DNA of 55,784 nucleotides from a bacterium (GTDB lineage: Bacteria > Lindowbacteria > 2-12-FULL-62-27), in NCBI GenBank assembly GCA_016202645.1, contig JACQOF010000029.1, positions 1 to 55,784 on the forward strand. Reading direction: 5' to 3'. This document shows positions 2,625 through 52,097 of the stretch, piece after piece. The notes below the pieces were generated by a model. The model was not told the origin of the DNA. It ran no database searches and was given only the letters and a program-made list of their open reading frames with translations. Made by a program: the position numbers and the translations under genes. Each line of letters begins with the position of its first letter. Position 1 is the stretch's first letter.

Positions 2625-2665
2625 CGTAGAAGGGTAGAAGGTAGAAAGGTAGAAGGAGTAGAAGG
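2625..2665. repeat. Degenerate tandem array of a GTAGAAGG word
   Basis: About five imperfect copies of an 8-nt word (GTAGAAGG, GTAGAAAG, GTAGAAGG, AGTAGAAGG) lie directly after the lipoprotein stop and run into the outer palindrome that begins at 2664. It is purine-rich on the plus strand and has no coding sense. It belongs to the same class of short-word arrays seen near 12500, 40704, 55371 and 55620. Confidence 0.7.
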
Positions 2666-2835
2666 GGTCATTCCCTTAGTTTATTAGTTTTGCAACCGTC
2701 AGGTTGTCGTCATGCCCGCGAAGGCGGGCATCCAGAGCCTCGAAGCGGACTGGATTCCCGCTTTCGCGGGAATGACGGATGGGCTGAATAGTGACTTAGT
2801 TTTGGCCAAAACTAATAAACTAAGGGAATGACCCC
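2664..2835. repeat. Palindromic element with perfect 29-bp arms, interrupted by a second palindrome
   Basis: The arm at 2664-2692 (GGGGTCATTCCCTTAG then a doubled TTAGTTT-like word) is the exact reverse complement of 2807-2835. The 114 bp between the arms hold a different inverted repeat (2709-2776), so this reads as one mobile palindrome inserted into the loop of another. The same arm sequence recurs, with one base changed in the doubled word and a 5-nt loop, at 30871-30921. A 14-bp direct repeat, GAATGACCCCTATT, occurs at 2826-2839 and 2874-2887. Such arms resemble REP/MITE sequences mobilised by IS200/IS605-type transposases, but no transposase gene is in the window. Confidence 0.85.
2709..2776. 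repeat. Inner inverted repeat of the ATTCCCGC...GCGGGAAT type
   Basis: Imperfect 27-bp arms at 2709-2735 and 2750-2776 pair around a 14-nt loop; the right arm carries ATTCCCGCTTTCGCGGGAAT. This is a widespread bacterial palindrome type, similar to Neisseria dRS3-like repeats and to sequences whose chance translation reads VIPAKAGIQ. It lies within the loop of the 2664-2835 element. Confidence 0.85.
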
Positions 2836-2886
2836 TATTCCCTATTCCTATTCCCCAAATTGACAGATTGACGGAATGACCCCTAT

Positions 2887-29568: not shown

Positions 29569-30890
29569 GCCTTCCGAAATCCGCGGTCTGGTATCCGTTC
29601 ACCCAGATGTCCGAACCCGCGCGCGCGCCGTTTCTGTCGATCGTCCGGGGCCGTGGGAATTATTTGTATGACGCCGAAGGCCGGAAATATTTCGACGGGG
29701 TCTCGTCGCTCTGGTGCAATCTCCACGGGCACGGCGTTCCGGAACTGACCCGCGCGATCGCCCGGCAGGCGGACCGCCTGGCCCACTCGACTCTCCTGGG
29801 TCTCACGCATCCGGGGGCGGAGGATCTGGCGAAGCGGCTCACCGACATTGCCCCGCGCGGGCTCACGCGCATGTTCTATTCCGACGACGGCGCGACAGCG
29901 GCGGAAGTCGCGCTCAAGATGGCCTACCAGTTCTGGCGCCACCGCGGCGAATCCCGGCGCGATCGGTTTATTTCGTTCAAACTCGGCTATCACGGCGACA
30001 CCCTGGGCGCCGTGTCGGTCGGCGGGGTCGACCTCTTTCACTCGACCTTCCGCCCCCTGCTTTTTCGGGGCGTCAAGGTTGACCCGCCGTACTGTTACCG
30101 GTGCCCGCTGAAACTGTCCTTCCCGTCCTGCCGGTACAAATGCCTGGAGGCGGTCGAGACCGCGTTGAAAAAAAATCAGAGACGCCTCGCGGCGTTTATC
30201 CTTGAGCCGAAAGTCATCGGAGCCGGCGGCATCATCGTCCAGCCTCGCGGTTATCTCTCACGGCTGGCGAAACTCTGCCGGGCTTATCGCGTCCCGATCA
30301 TCGCGGATGAAGTCGCGACGGGCTTCGGCCGCACGGGACGGATGTTCGCCTGCGAACACGAAAACGTCCGGCCGGATTTCATGTGCGTCGCCAAGGGCCT
30401 GACGGGTGGGACCGTGCCGCTGGCCGCGACGCTGACGACCGACCGCGTCTACCGGGCGTTTCTCGGACGATACGAGGAGGCCAAAACCTTTTTCCACGGC
30501 CACACCTACACCGGCAATCCCGTCGGCTGTGCGGCAGCCCTCGCCAACCTCGACCTCTTCAAGCGCCGCCGCATCCTACAACATCTCCCTGCCAAGATCC
30601 GTTTTTTCTCCGACGAATTGGCCGCCCTCCGCAACCTCCCCCACGTCGGCGACGTCCGCCAGGCGGGTTTCATGGTCGGCGTGGAATTGGTCCGCCGCCG
30701 CGCAACCCGGGAACCTTACTCTTGGGAAGAAGGCATCGGCCGCAAGGTCTGCGCCCGGCTCCGCGCCCGCGGCATCCTCCTGCGCCCGCTGGGAAACGTC
30801 CTGGTCCTGATGCCTCCCCTGTCTTCCACCCTCGCCGAACTGCGCCGCCTCGTCCAGGAAATAAAAGGGATCATTCCCTTAGTTTGTTAG
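29565..30890 (+). CDS. bioA: Adenosylmethionine-8-amino-7-oxononanoate aminotransferase BioA
   Basis: 441 residues, class III aminotransferase. VWYPFTQMSEP, DGVSSLWCNLHGHG, YSDDGATAAEVALKMA, SFKLGYHGDTLGAVSVGG, the cofactor Asp in IIADEVATGFGRTG and the PLP lysine in CVAKGLTGG (Lys277) identify BioA. A cysteine cluster (CYRC at 177-180, then Cys189 and Cys193) is found in some BioA subfamilies. It forms 7,8-diaminononanoate using SAM as amino donor. The last six codons and the TAG stop lie inside a palindromic repeat (30871-30921), so the original C-terminus has been replaced by IIPLVC. Confidence 0.93.
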   Translation: MSLPKSAVWYPFTQMSEPARAPFLSIVRGRGNYLYDAEGRKYFDGVSSLWCNLHGHGVPELTRAIARQADRLAHSTLLGLTHPGAEDLAKRLTDIAPRGLTRMFYSDDGATAAEVALKMAYQFWRHRGESRRDRFISFKLGYHGDTLGAVSVGGVDLFHSTFRPLLFRGVKVDPPYCYRCPLKLSFPSCRYKCLEAVETALKKNQRRLAAFILEPKVIGAGGIIVQPRGYLSRLAKLCRAYRVPIIADEVATGFGRTGRMFACEHENVRPDFMCVAKGLTGGTVPLAATLTTDRVYRAFLGRYEEAKTFFHGHTYTGNPVGCAAALANLDLFKRRRILQHLPAKIRFFSDELAALRNLPHVGDVRQAGFMVGVELVRRRATREPYSWEEGIGRKVCARLRARGILLRPLGNVLVLMPPLSSTLAELRRLVQEIKGIIPLVC

Positions 30891-30921
30891 TTTTGCCCAA
30901 ACTAACAAACTAAGGGAATGA
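30871..30921. repeat. Perfect 23-bp inverted repeat forming the 3' end of bioA
   Basis: Arms 30871-30893 and 30899-30921 are exact reverse complements around a 5-nt loop (TGCCC). Each arm contains TCATTCCC and a doubled TTAGTTTG/TTAGTTT word, matching the outer palindrome at 2664-2835 except for one base. It supplies the bioA stop codon and, as a very stable hairpin, probably limits read-through into the HD-GYP genes. Confidence 0.88.
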
Positions 30922-30950
30922 CTCCTATTCCCCTCTCTCCCCCTTCTTGC

Positions 30951-39753: not shown

Positions 39754-42210
<2,457 letters not shown>

Positions 42211-47765: not shown

Positions 47766-49018
47766 AATCCGGCGAGGCCGCGGCGGAACTGAGAGACTTG
47801 GTGGAACAGCTTCAGCCCGCCTTCGACATTCTGCCGGACCCCATCCGCGTTATCGATCCGCGGGGAATTTCCATCTACGTCAACCGCGCTTTCCTTCAGA
47901 TGACCGGATTTTCCCCAACGGAAATCATCGGCCGGCCGGCCGTCGAATCTTTCGTCGAGGAAGATCATACGCGGGTGAAAACGTCCATCTCATCCTTCTT
48001 CAAGTCCGGCGTCTGGTCCGGCACGCTCGAAGTCCGGATGCACCGCAAGGGCGGGGAACCGGTGGCCGTGAGCCTCAACGGATCGGCGGTCCGGAACTCC
48101 CGGCAGGAAATGATCGGCGGGTTTGCGGTGTTCCGCGACGTCTCGCGCCTCGAACGGATCCTCGCCGAGCCGCTGGAAATCCTCAAACTCGAGGGATCTC
48201 CCGTCGAAGTCCTCCGACTGCTTCCCGCTCGCGTCGCCGGATATTTCCCGGGAAGACCCTGGGTGATGATCAATCTGGTGCAGGGCGAATATCTGCGGTT
48301 CGCGTACGCGATCAACGTCCCGGCCGAACTCATGGCCCAGGGCGGTGAACCGATGGATGAGGCCATCTGCAGTATTCCGATCCGGAGCGCCACGCCGCTC
48401 GGCATCGCCGACATGACGGCCGACGACCGGACCCGCCAGGATCCCTGCGTCACGCAATACGGATGCCGGGGGTACCTCGGTTATCCGATCCGGCTCTCAT
48501 CCGGCATGGTGGTCGGCGTGATCTGCGTGCTTCGAAGCAACCGCGGCGGGTTCGGGGAGTACGACCATCGGATACTGGAGATGTTCGCCAAACGCGCCGC
48601 GATGGAACTCGAACGGTCGGAACTCGAAGCCCGGCTTGACGAGGCGGAACGCGACCTCCAGGGCATGATCGACCACGCGCCCTTTCTGCTCTGGCGGATT
48701 TCGCCGGAAGGCCGGATTTTCGCGATGTCCCGGAAGGGTAAGAAAGACTTGGGATACGAGGAATCGGCCGCGATCGGTGAATCGTGGTTCGATCTGATCC
48801 ATCCCGACGACTTGGACGACATCAGAAAAGGATTTGCGCAACTTCAGAATCCCAAAACACGGAACGGCAATCCCGCCCACCAGTTCCGTCTGCGCAAGAA
48901 GGACGGTGAATACGGCCTGTTCTTCACCACCGTCCGCCCGGTCCTCGACCGGATGGGCAACGTCAAAATCCTCGAAGGCGTCTCGATCGAAATTCCCCAG
49001 GAAGAATCCGTCAACTAA
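47744..49018 (+). CDS. PAS-GAF-PAS sensory protein without an output domain
   Basis: 424 residues, soluble. The first PAS domain (about 20-135) has DPIRVIDPRGISIYVNRAFLQ and FSPTEIIGRPAVESFV. A GAF-like domain (about 145-290) has WVMINLVQGEYLRFAYAIN, ICSIPIRSATPL and YLGYPIRLSSGMVVGVICVL, followed by the signalling helix ELERSELEARLDEAE. A second PAS domain (about 300-415) has MIDHAPFLLWRISPEGRIF and IHPDDLDDIRKGF. There is no kinase, HTH, GGDEF or cyclase. It may act on a partner protein. The GTG at 47744 overlaps the redoxin gene; a GTG at 47756 is an alternative. A Cys-x-x-x-x-Gly-Cys (CVTQYGC) in the GAF domain might bind a cofactor. Confidence 0.8.
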   Translation: MFDQVEVKSGEAAAELRDLVEQLQPAFDILPDPIRVIDPRGISIYVNRAFLQMTGFSPTEIIGRPAVESFVEEDHTRVKTSISSFFKSGVWSGTLEVRMHRKGGEPVAVSLNGSAVRNSRQEMIGGFAVFRDVSRLERILAEPLEILKLEGSPVEVLRLLPARVAGYFPGRPWVMINLVQGEYLRFAYAINVPAELMAQGGEPMDEAICSIPIRSATPLGIADMTADDRTRQDPCVTQYGCRGYLGYPIRLSSGMVVGVICVLRSNRGGFGEYDHRILEMFAKRAAMELERSELEARLDEAERDLQGMIDHAPFLLWRISPEGRIFAMSRKGKKDLGYEESAAIGESWFDLIHPDDLDDIRKGFAQLQNPKTRNGNPAHQFRLRKKDGEYGLFFTTVRPVLDRMGNVKILEGVSIEIPQEESVN

Positions 49019-49943
49019 AAAATCGTTCCACCCCGCGCGCGATTTCCGCCGCGGCGGCTTCGACGGCTTCATGCGTCGACGCGCCGAGGTGCGGCGTCAG
49101 AATCAGGTTTCCGCGGGATCTCGCATACGCCCTGAGGGGACTTCCCGCCGGCAGAGGCTCCGTCGAAAAAACGTCGAGGGCCGCGCCGCCAAGCCGGCCA
49201 TGCCTCAGCGCCGCGAGAATCGCGCGCTCGTCGGCGATGGCGCCCCGCGCGGTGTTGACCAAAAACGCGCCGCGCCGCATGAGCCGCAGTTCCCGCGCGC
49301 CGATCATCCCGCGGGTTTCGGCCGTCAACGCAGCATGGATCGAGACCACGTCGGACCGTCGGAGCAGGTCCTGCAGACGCCGGCACATCTGAATGCCGCG
49401 CCGCCCGCGAACGTAGGGATCATACGCCAGCACAACCATCCCGTGCGCCCGTGCTAGTTTCGCGACGGCCCGGCCGATCCGCCCGAGCCCGACAATCCCG
49501 ATGGTCTTGCCGGATATCTGCGTTCCGATCCAGCGCGCGCGGTTCCAGCCGCCGGCCCGCATCACCGGCTGAACTTCAGCGACTCGCCGCGCCAGCGCCA
49601 AGAGAAGCGCCAGCGTGTGCTCGGCGGTGGGGATGGTGTGCGTGCCGTGAAGATGCAGAACGCGGATGTTTCCGCGGCGTGCCGCATCGAGGTCGATGTG
49701 GTCGATCCCCGTCGTCGCGCTTGCGATGAGTCTGAGACGCGGCGCGCCCTCCAGGAGGCGCCGGTCCAGCCGCGTCTCGACCCGGACCACCGCCGCGTCC
49801 GCCCCCGGCAGATCCCCCGCCAGCCGCCGCCGCGCCGGCGATCCCGCTTGCACCCGGCCAACCCGTCTCAGGCGGGACAGAACGCTTTTGAAATAGGCAG
49901 GCTCCGTCACCAAAATGACCGGCCAGTATCCTCCGCGTTTCAT
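49011..49943 (-). CDS. D-2-hydroxyacid dehydrogenase (SerA/hydroxypyruvate-reductase type)
   Basis: About 310 residues from the ATG at 49943; ATG 49964 and TTG 49985 are in frame upstream. IASATTGIDHIDLDAA, the NAD loop GIVGLGRIGRAVAKLA, the Arg in NTARGAIADE, the Glu in DVFSTEPLPAGSP and the His in LTPHLGAST make the catalytic triad. It reduces a 2-keto acid with NAD(P)H; phosphoglycerate, glyoxylate or hydroxypyruvate are candidates. No ACT domain is present, which argues against allosteric SerA. The stop overlaps the convergent PAS gene by 8 bp. No Shine-Dalgarno is evident. Confidence 0.88.
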   Translation of the reverse strand: MKRGGYWPVILVTEPAYFKSVLSRLRRVGRVQAGSPARRRLAGDLPGADAAVVRVETRLDRRLLEGAPRLRLIASATTGIDHIDLDAARRGNIRVLHLHGTHTIPTAEHTLALLLALARRVAEVQPVMRAGGWNRARWIGTQISGKTIGIVGLGRIGRAVAKLARAHGMVVLAYDPYVRGRRGIQMCRRLQDLLRRSDVVSIHAALTAETRGMIGARELRLMRRGAFLVNTARGAIADERAILAALRHGRLGGAALDVFSTEPLPAGSPLRAYARSRGNLILTPHLGASTHEAVEAAAAEIARGVERFFS

Positions 49944-50040
49944 CGCCGTAAGATAATCACCCATAGGCGCGTCCCGCAACCGCAATATGGGTCGGCTGCC
50001 GCGCCGGCTGCCAGAATCACCGGCCGCCGGGTGAATGGGG

Positions 50041-50123
50041 AAATGGGGAAATGGGGCCGGGTATTGACATTATTGACATTTCAAATGTCAATAATGTCAA
50101 TACCCGGCCCCATTTCCCCATTT
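50041..50123. repeat. 83-bp perfect palindrome at the 3' end of the GH15 gene
   Basis: The arm 50041-50081 is the exact reverse complement of 50083-50123 with a single-base loop at 50082. Each arm contains doubled words: AAATGGGG twice and TATTGACAT twice. It overlaps the last 27 bp of the glucoamylase gene, whose final codons (KWGNGAGY) and TGA are encoded by the arm. A 41-bp perfect stem would be an extremely strong transcript hairpin. Confidence 0.93.
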
Positions 50124-52097
50124 TGCCTCGTATTGATGGACCGTTTCCACCAGCGTGGCGTGGCTCCACGTCAGAGGGGATACGGACAGCGGCTCGCCCG
50201 TGAGCGGGTGGACCTGCTCGGCCAGAACGCCGCTTTGCAGGGCGCGGACGGCGACCCACGAGAGGATGTCCCGAGGCCACGCCAGGTCCGCGCGCGTTTT
50301 CGCGCGGGCGATCAACCACTGCGCCACCCACATCGTGCAGATGAGCCAGGGATTGCCCGGGACCTTGTCGATGTCGGAACTTTTCCGGTGATAATAATCG
50401 TTGGTGTAGCGCGCGATGCCGCCGACGTCCGTCTTGATCCGCAGATCCTGCTCGATCCGCCGCATCGTCTGCTCGACCTGGGGGTCGTCCGCCGGAAAGG
50501 CGCCGAAGGCGAACAGGCCGAAGAGACTGCTGTCGAGGACAGGGTCGACCTTGAGACGGCCGTCACGGTCGTACGAGACCATCCGCGCGTAACGGCCGAG
50601 TTCCGGCCGGTAGAGAATTTTTTTCAGGGCGGCCCGCATGGTCTCGGCCGCGTCCCCGGCGGCTTTCGAGAGTTCCGCATCTTTGAAGAGGCCGGCGAAA
50701 TACGCGCCCGCGCGCAGGCCGGCCACCACGGCGCTCGTCGTGAAAGTCAGCACGCCGTATCGTTCCTCCCAGAGGTCGTAGGATTCCCGGGGCAGGCCGG
50801 TGGTCTCGTCCCGGTAATGGATCATGAATGAAGTGGCGGGCTTGATGAGCGGCTCATAGAGGTCCCGGACGAACGCAAGATCTTTGCGTCGGGCGTAATG
50901 CTCGCCGAGCGCCCAGAGGACCAGCGCGGTTTCGTCCTCCTGGATGGGCAGGGAGGGCCCGCCGTCCCGCACCCACGGATGCCAGGAACTTCCGAGAGAA
51001 CCGTCGGGATTGAATTTATGGAGCAGATAGCCTTCGTGGTAGAATGTTTTCGGCGGCATGAGCTTCGCGCAAAATTCGAAAAACTTTCTCGTCAGGTCCG
51101 GATACCCGGCCCGGTCCAGGGCGTGGGCCACGAGCGCCCCGTCCCTCGGCCACATGTAGCTGTAGGTGTCCATGTTGAATTCGCGGGAATCGCCGTCGTT
51201 GGCGGCGAGAATGGCGCCGCCGTCGTCGATCTGCGAGCGGATGATGAGAAGGCTTCGGCGATAGAGACTCAGCAGGTCCTCCGGCAAATCTCCCGCCTTA
51301 CGGCCGCGGTCGCCCAGCCAGCCGCGCCAGTGGGCCGCAGTTCGCTCGAAATAAAAATCGGGTCCGTTTTTGAAAATGGTCAGGTTGGTGTTGCGCGCCG
51401 CGAAGTACCCGAGGTCGGCGGCGATCCAGTAATGAAATCGCGCCGTCTGGCCGGGTCCCACCTCGTGCCGGAGGGAAAACGTCGAGTCGACGGAGCCTTG
51501 CGTGATGGGGTTCATCGAAAGCTCCCCGTCTTCGGCGTCCCGCCAGCTTCCCTCCTGCCCGCCGAATTCCTTGACGCCGGTGCAGTACTGGTGGATGGTT
51601 TTGTGCGAAGCGGGATCGGCGCCGGGTGCGGTTCCGTTGATCAGAAAATACCGGCGGCCCTTGTAATGGATGAGGACGTCGTTCACCGGCTCGTAATAGG
51701 CGGTGTCCCCGGTCTTGTCGGCGTAGATGCGGAAGTCGTGATGGAAAAAGAGGCGGACCTCGCGGGCCCGGCCTTCCTCGTTTCGAACGTCGATGCGTTT
51801 GAAATAAATGGTTTCCTGACAATCGACCATGTCCTGGCAGGTGAGATGCAGCTTCAGTCGGGGATGGTACAGGTGAACGGACGTGATCAGGAGACCGTCC
51901 GCGTAGTCGAGCTTCCGCTCCCAGCCGGCGTCATCCACCCACCGGAATTCGCCGTCCACCCAGACGCCGAACCGGCACGGAAAGCCCATGGTCTGATTTT
52001 CCTGACCGACGCGCGGATAATAGAAATCGCGGAGCCGGTACCCGGCGTCGAAATTGACCAGCATCCGGCCGTTGCCGATCGGCAAGTCACGCGGCAT
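50097..52097 (-). CDS. Glycoside hydrolase family 15 (glucoamylase-like)
   Basis: 666 residues, cytoplasmic (no signal peptide). An N-terminal beta-sandwich domain (about 1-260) precedes an (alpha/alpha)6 barrel: MDTYSYMWPRDGALVAHALD, PIQEDETALVLWALGEHY with one catalytic Glu, SYDLWEERYGVLTFTTSAVV, and SGVLAEQVHPLTGEPLSVSPLTWSHA with the second. These match prokaryotic GH15 glucoamylases and trehalases that release glucose from alpha-glucans. The C-terminus ends inside the palindrome at 50041-50123. The zinc-ribbon gene sits 13 bp upstream. Intracellular glycogen or maltodextrin turnover is the likely role. Confidence 0.92.
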   Translation of the reverse strand: MPRDLPIGNGRMLVNFDAGYRLRDFYYPRVGQENQTMGFPCRFGVWVDGEFRWVDDAGWERKLDYADGLLITSVHLYHPRLKLHLTCQDMVDCQETIYFKRIDVRNEEGRAREVRLFFHHDFRIYADKTGDTAYYEPVNDVLIHYKGRRYFLINGTAPGADPASHKTIHQYCTGVKEFGGQEGSWRDAEDGELSMNPITQGSVDSTFSLRHEVGPGQTARFHYWIAADLGYFAARNTNLTIFKNGPDFYFERTAAHWRGWLGDRGRKAGDLPEDLLSLYRRSLLIIRSQIDDGGAILAANDGDSREFNMDTYSYMWPRDGALVAHALDRAGYPDLTRKFFEFCAKLMPPKTFYHEGYLLHKFNPDGSLGSSWHPWVRDGGPSLPIQEDETALVLWALGEHYARRKDLAFVRDLYEPLIKPATSFMIHYRDETTGLPRESYDLWEERYGVLTFTTSAVVAGLRAGAYFAGLFKDAELSKAAGDAAETMRAALKKILYRPELGRYARMVSYDRDGRLKVDPVLDSSLFGLFAFGAFPADDPQVEQTMRRIEQDLRIKTDVGGIARYTNDYYHRKSSDIDKVPGNPWLICTMWVAQWLIARAKTRADLAWPRDILSWVAVRALQSGVLAEQVHPLTGEPLSVSPLTWSHATLVETVHQYEAKWGNGAGY

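Follow-up and report, generated by a model that had tools for sequence, protein, structure and literature searches.

A perfect 83-bp palindrome at the 3' end of a GH15 gene, very probably a gene-less TIRtron/TIRYT derivative

A perfect inverted repeat of 83 bp is present in the window (the whole stretch of 55,784 nucleotides that was analysed), between a D-2-hydroxyacid dehydrogenase gene and a GH15 gene whose final codons it contains. Its arms are 41 nt long, 100% complementary and separated by 1 nt, which confirms the perfect palindrome with 41-bp arms and a one-base loop reported in the first-pass annotation. The features of the locus are as follows.

49011..49985, minus strand: D-2-hydroxyacid dehydrogenase, the next gene; the palindrome sits between this gene and GH15.
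50033..50052, plus strand: left "ladder", tandem copies of (G)AAT+GGGG beyond the left tip; exact repeat with a shift of 8.
50041..50123, no strand: 83-bp perfect palindrome, read as a dimer of terminal inverted repeats (TIRs) plus duplicated outer flank (inverted-repeat scan, simulation, fold); left arm 50041-50081, right arm 50083-50123.
50053..50081, plus strand: left TIR, with the head GGGGCCGGG at 50053-50061, the 9-nt tandem repeat TATTGACAT twice at 50062-50079, and then TT.
50082, no strand: 1-nt centre; the transposase gene fills the same place in the parent transposon.
50083..50111, minus strand: right TIR, an inverted copy of the left TIR.
50112..50124, minus strand: right "ladder", ATTTCCCCATTTT; mirror of the left ladder, extending the palindrome past the core.
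50097..52097, minus strand: GH15 gene (glucoamylase / oligosaccharide amylase-like), 666 aa; PF00723 and TIGR01577.

The longest perfect arm in simulated DNA (30 Markov-1 windows with the same dinucleotide frequencies) is 8-12 nt, as against 41 nt here, and the region of 50041-50123 is predicted to fold as ssDNA into one hairpin of -51.6 kcal/mol (z = -14.9). The repeat unit proper is a 59-61-bp core at 50053-50111 (GGGGCCGGGTATTGACATTATTGACATTT and its inverted copy), and the tandem repeat of its left TIR is significant (period 9, p=0.002). The 12 bp that flank this core at either end (AAATGGGGAAAT and ATTTCCCCATTT) consist of duplicated tip and flank; these two ladders make the palindrome in the window longer than the core by 12 bp per side. 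The symmetry of the outer 12 bp may stem from intrastrand copying, with one arm as the template of the other.

The C-terminus of the GH15 ORF is ...EAKWGNGAGY*. Codons 659-666 (50100-50123) and the stop (50097-50099) are all within the palindrome, so the earlier description of the palindrome as supplying the last eight codons and stop of this gene is exact for ORF 50097-52097. On the minus strand, from 50123 to 50097, the end reads AAA TGG GGA AAT GGG GCC GGG TAT followed by the stop TGA. GAGY and the stop (GGG GCC GGG TAT TGA) are from the element core, and KWGN is from the duplicated flank. The TIGR01577 match on the protein stops at residue 655 (profile position 612 of 616), and therefore the GH15 domain ends about where the element starts (residue 659). 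Four GH15 relatives (47-50% identity) have short, unconserved and unrelated tails, with neither NGAGY nor a palindrome. A search for an exact empty site through GH15 orthologues within the same bacterial family found no orthologue. In another genus of that family (G002), an unrelated 509-aa ORF also terminates as ...QNGAGY* inside the same element.

Copies of the arm are present at about 18-20 places in its own genome (a 2.92 Mb draft in 146 contigs), both as whole palindromes and as halves. Near-complete palindromes occur at five loci: the window, C125:26894, C106:57315, C99:16050 and C84:9622. Those in the window, C125 and C106 are perfect or nearly so, with at least about 31 bp per arm, and the remaining copies are halves or have additional DNA between or beside the arms. 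By simple ORF scoring, each of the five most complete palindromes has a predicted gene 3' end no more than 38 bp away, and two of the five separate convergent genes; some half-copies fall within ORFs. The first-pass annotation had proposed counting other copies of the arm and checking whether each sits at a gene 3' end; the other copies exist, and the five most complete palindromes all occupy such a position, which not every half-copy shares. Neither a lone copy of the arm nor the same natural C-terminus in GH15 relatives was encountered. Three half-copies, L079:690-760 and 2579-2650 (G000:C35) and L018 (G000:C132:1677), have in common an other arm that has diverged to GGGGCCGCCCAATGACTCG, and therefore look like a subfamily.

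Among 40 other genomes searched, the repeat is present only in two other genera of the same family (G001 and G002), and it is absent from all 38 searched genomes outside the family. An exact 23-mer was found in only one assembly of an 84,980-species collection, a Candidatus Lindowbacteria MAG that is apparently G002. The viral contigs searched contained zero copies of the arm, and an Rfam scan of the window returned tRNA only. The possibility that the palindrome is a fold-back chimera of assembly or amplification has to be considered for a draft genome in this many contigs, as fold-back amplification can yield perfect palindromes. However, at least five independent palindromic loci have distinct unique flanks on both sides, and homologous repeats occur in two other assemblies, so that an artefact is vanishingly improbable.

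The likely source of the arms is found in the same genome, where at least ten genes match Y1_Tnp (PF01797). On contig C95 (G000:C95), a HUH/Y1 transposase gene of 285 aa is flanked by two half-copies of the palindrome as inverted TIRs (34 nt, one mismatch). The ends of this transposon are GGGGCCGGGTATTGACATTATTGACATTTGAAAT and ...TTTAAAAT, in inverted orientation, and the left TIR of the palindrome is identical in type to them. Because the arm stands at both ends of the C95 gene, the palindrome can be read as the two ends of the transposon without the gene. On this sequence evidence it is very probably a gene-less TIRtron/TIRYT derivative with its two TIRs 1 nt apart. A TIRtron carries one gene, for a HUH/Y1 TIR-associated tyrosine transposase (TIRYT), between inverted repeats. 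The rarity of such a structure had earlier been ascribed to the instability of cruciform DNA, which misses the cause of the palindrome, namely that the arms correspond to the TIRs of a HUH transposon. G001 and G002 each have the same transposon, with transposases of 288 and 289 aa that are 58% and 65% identical. In G001 the variant TTGACTTAATTGACTT is found, with some variation, in both the TIRs and the dispersed copies; arms and TIRs have thus changed together, the pattern expected if the enzyme acts on dimers.

The transposase matches PF01797 above the cut-off and NCBIfam NF047646 (REP_Tyr_transpos) with E 6e-20 at 72 bits; scores of 67-72 bits are below the cut-off of 80. HUH residues N59-H60-x-H62 and Y119 are invariant in the transposases. 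The C-terminus has an HTH_23 match under the Pfam cut-off (E 1.5e-4), and a C-terminal profile of ten proteins of the genome matches DnaA domain IV of solved DnaA structures (E 2.7e-6 and 7.7e-5). A single-sequence AlphaFold model of the transposase had a pLDDT of 41 and was discarded.

The very stable fold at a gene 3' end, and the fact that all five most complete palindromes occupy such a position, would also be expected of a host-encoded hairpin of the GH15 gene, a terminator or mRNA 3' stabiliser that is not a mobile element. The stem, however, has no long T-tract after it, the same arms form the ends of a transposase gene in each of three genera, and the half-copies elsewhere include those inside ORFs. 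A host hairpin is therefore largely refuted as the origin of the palindrome and is very unlikely, although the palindrome may have a secondary role as terminator or stabiliser. The recent insertion proposed in the first-pass annotation is backed by the dispersed copies, the parent transposon with the same ends, the GH15 relatives that are without the tail, and the alaS site, whereas the active gene conversion offered beside it was not shown. At the 3' end of alaS a palindrome is present in the own genome and none in the related genus G001; as evidence of insertion this cross-genus comparison is only suggestive because the neighbouring gene also differs in G001. If the palindrome is such a derivative, it is an odd sequence traced to a transposon product, and it illustrates how host genes acquire C-terminal tails from elements of this kind.

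Nine of the ten Y1_Tnp genes have clear TIRs, of several distinct sequences, and these TIR types recur elsewhere in the genome. Two further features of this kind are in the window.

30863..30929, no strand: second palindromic TIR dimer in the window, with the TIR AGGGGTCATTCCCTTAGTTTGTTAGTTT of the transposase at G000:C106:129662.
2662..2836, no strand: third TIR pair in the window, with 114 nt between its arms (2663-2692 and 2807-2836); TIR family of 30863-30929.

The pair at 2662-2836 encloses an inner palindrome, CGTCATGCCCGCGAAGGCGGGCATCCAG...GGAATGACG, at 2708-2777. An imperfect palindrome of AGTATCGG-like 8-mers at 40698-40793 belongs to another dispersed family, with several dozen places in the genome, which matches none of the TIRYT TIRs found. 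A longer multicopy element carries the same GGGGCCGGGTATTGACATTATTGG tip, followed by a shared body of up to about 110 bp, and a different tail. It breaks the assembly, and is located at four contig ends (L025:1-150 at the start of G000:C114, the starts of C98 and C140, and the end of C65) and also at C106:73052.

The arrangement of the TIR was surveyed at 53 related genes, for which further TIRYT genes were fetched from many genera. A TIR score of at least 15 was obtained at 48 of the 53, and shuffled controls reached a maximum of 11. The arms share a plan, a G-rich head like GGGGTCAG..C followed by a tandem repeat of 7-9 bp. The period of the repeat is 7 mostly in proteins of 312-327 aa and 8-9 mostly in proteins of 285-305 aa. 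Of the 48 arms, 29 have a significant tandem repeat (p<0.05); the combined p of 3e-31 overstates the case because the proteins are related. In partial Mantel tests, to which TIR heads mis-anchored for a few proteins (e.g. L035, L164, L174 and L222) add noise, as they do to the ladder counts at gene ends, head distance tracks HUH-domain distance (r about 0.36-0.54, p 0.002 or less) and shows r of about 0 with C-terminus distance. Repeat distance tracks the C-terminus with the HUH domain controlled (r 0.17-0.22, p 0.006 or less). The latter correlation persists after pruning at 50% identity (r 0.23-0.32, p 0.006 or less) and is weak outside this bacterial family (r 0.09-0.19, p 0.03-0.11). These correlations suggest that the head may be read by the HUH domain and the repeats by the DnaA-like domain. 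The repeats are not claimed to be DnaA boxes because TTWTNCACA is not enriched overall in the TIR tails (mean 5.20 versus 5.09 matches, z 0.98); TTATTGACA of the palindrome family fits this consensus at 7 of 8 informative positions.

Outward ladders like those at 50033-50052 and 50112-50124 are far commoner than chance predicts. In the palindrome family, 18 of 44 ends repeat, within 30 bp outside, their GGGG together with the 4 flank bases next to it (at most 1 mismatch), compared with a mean of 1.2 and a maximum of 5 in shuffles and with 5 of 112 other GGGGC sites in the window. TIRYT gene ends have a ladder in 20 of 93 cases (shuffles 1.3, maximum 5), and exact matches only are found at 20 of 134 ends, versus 0.09 by chance. 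Each repeat of a ladder comprises 3-13 nt of the tip together with several nt of flank, and such tandem arrays extend outward from TIRYT ends in many genera, e.g. at L214, L040, L163 and L036. They could originate from slipped DNA synthesis at the base of the hairpin or from repeated abortive insertion.

A mechanism can be proposed in which the TIR dimer, once single-stranded (e.g. in the lagging-strand template), would fold into a hairpin with the tandem 9-mers in its stem and the G-rich head at its base. The transposase would bind the 9-mers through its DnaA-domain-IV-like C-terminus and cut at the head with its HUH/Tyr domain, and the element would be moved or copied to a new site. From sequence features we infer each of hairpin formation, repeat binding, head cutting and mobilisation of the dimer. 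At the GH15 3' end, the inserted element would have supplied GAGY and the TGA stop, and the duplicated flank KWGN. A more general proposal, which we hold tentatively and regard as falling a little short of probable, joins two parts: a TIRYT address in which HUH would recognise the G-rich tip and the DnaA-domain-IV-like module, a relative of the replication initiator, a family-specific 7-9-bp repeat behind it, and replicative stuttering at the tip that would leave tandem ladders of tip and flank as a scar of insertion. If the two-part address is true, it would allow ten such transposons within a single genome each to act on their own ends. A general duplication of tip plus flank could reveal how TIRYT elements insert. 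Bipartite TIRs and outward ladders seem little described.

By its enzyme, TIR and domain traits, the palindrome fits a known class of single-strand-DNA transposon, TIRtron/TIRYT (Di Nocera 2013) and TnpA_Y1 subclass 2.1 (Quentin 2018). The consulted part of the TIRtron source (PMC3733652) describes a RAYT-like HUH/Y1 gene between long TIRs, many of which have a GGGGWSAS head, this motif being found in part of the published TIRs and not in all, and TIR copies that occur dispersed as singles and dimers. The present elements likewise have a RAYT-like HUH/Y1 gene with TIRs and without GTAG REPs, and their TIRs are also dispersed as singles and dimers. They differ in that the dimer is a perfect palindrome with only 1 nt between the arms, in the second, tandem-repeat part of the TIR, which the same part of PMC3733652 does not describe, and in their hosts, which are uncultured Lindowbacteria-like genera. 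The TIR family of the palindrome has GGGGCCGG, which matches the GGGG part alone of GGGGWSAS; GGGGTCAG or GGGGACAG is found in the TIRs of many relatives. With TnpA_Y1 subclass 2.1 the transposases share a long protein, the HUH/Tyr core and a C-terminal HTH / Bac_DnaA_C domain (PMC6006769). In that study only the GGGG head was compared with DnaA boxes, and the conclusion was that the HTH possibly plays no part in target recognition, or else recognises a new target. The tail repeats here vary with the HTH, and the survey offers a testable answer to the 2018 question of the role of the HTH/DnaA-like domain in subclass 2.1 transposases.

The elements also resemble the REPIN/REPtron system (Bertels and Rainey 2011, PMC3116915) in having an inverted doublet, one hairpin and a supposed RAYT-like mover. 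A classical REP/REPIN, a GTAG-tagged REP doublet moved by a RAYT, would account for two inverted units in one hairpin and for the RAYT-like gene elsewhere in the genome. The units here are plain TIRs, however; a GT[AG]G tetranucleotide beside a within-unit hairpin was sought in the arm GGGGCCGGGTATTGACATTATTGACATTT and neither is present, that is, the arm has no GTAG/GTGG foot and no internal hairpin. The palindrome is not classed as a REPIN because its arms are without a GTAG-tagged hairpin, and simple TIRs around a gene with a DnaA-like C-terminal domain are TIRYT traits in PMC6006769 and the consulted part of PMC3733652, which makes a REP/REPIN origin extremely unlikely. Like a MITE, the palindrome is short, gene-less and has TIRs in common with an autonomous element of the same genome; it differs in having almost no internal DNA and in its HUH enzyme, as opposed to DDE. 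As a gene-less TIRtron/TIRYT derivative, the palindrome adds a new case to a class of mobile DNA that is itself ordinary, and represents no new phenomenon.
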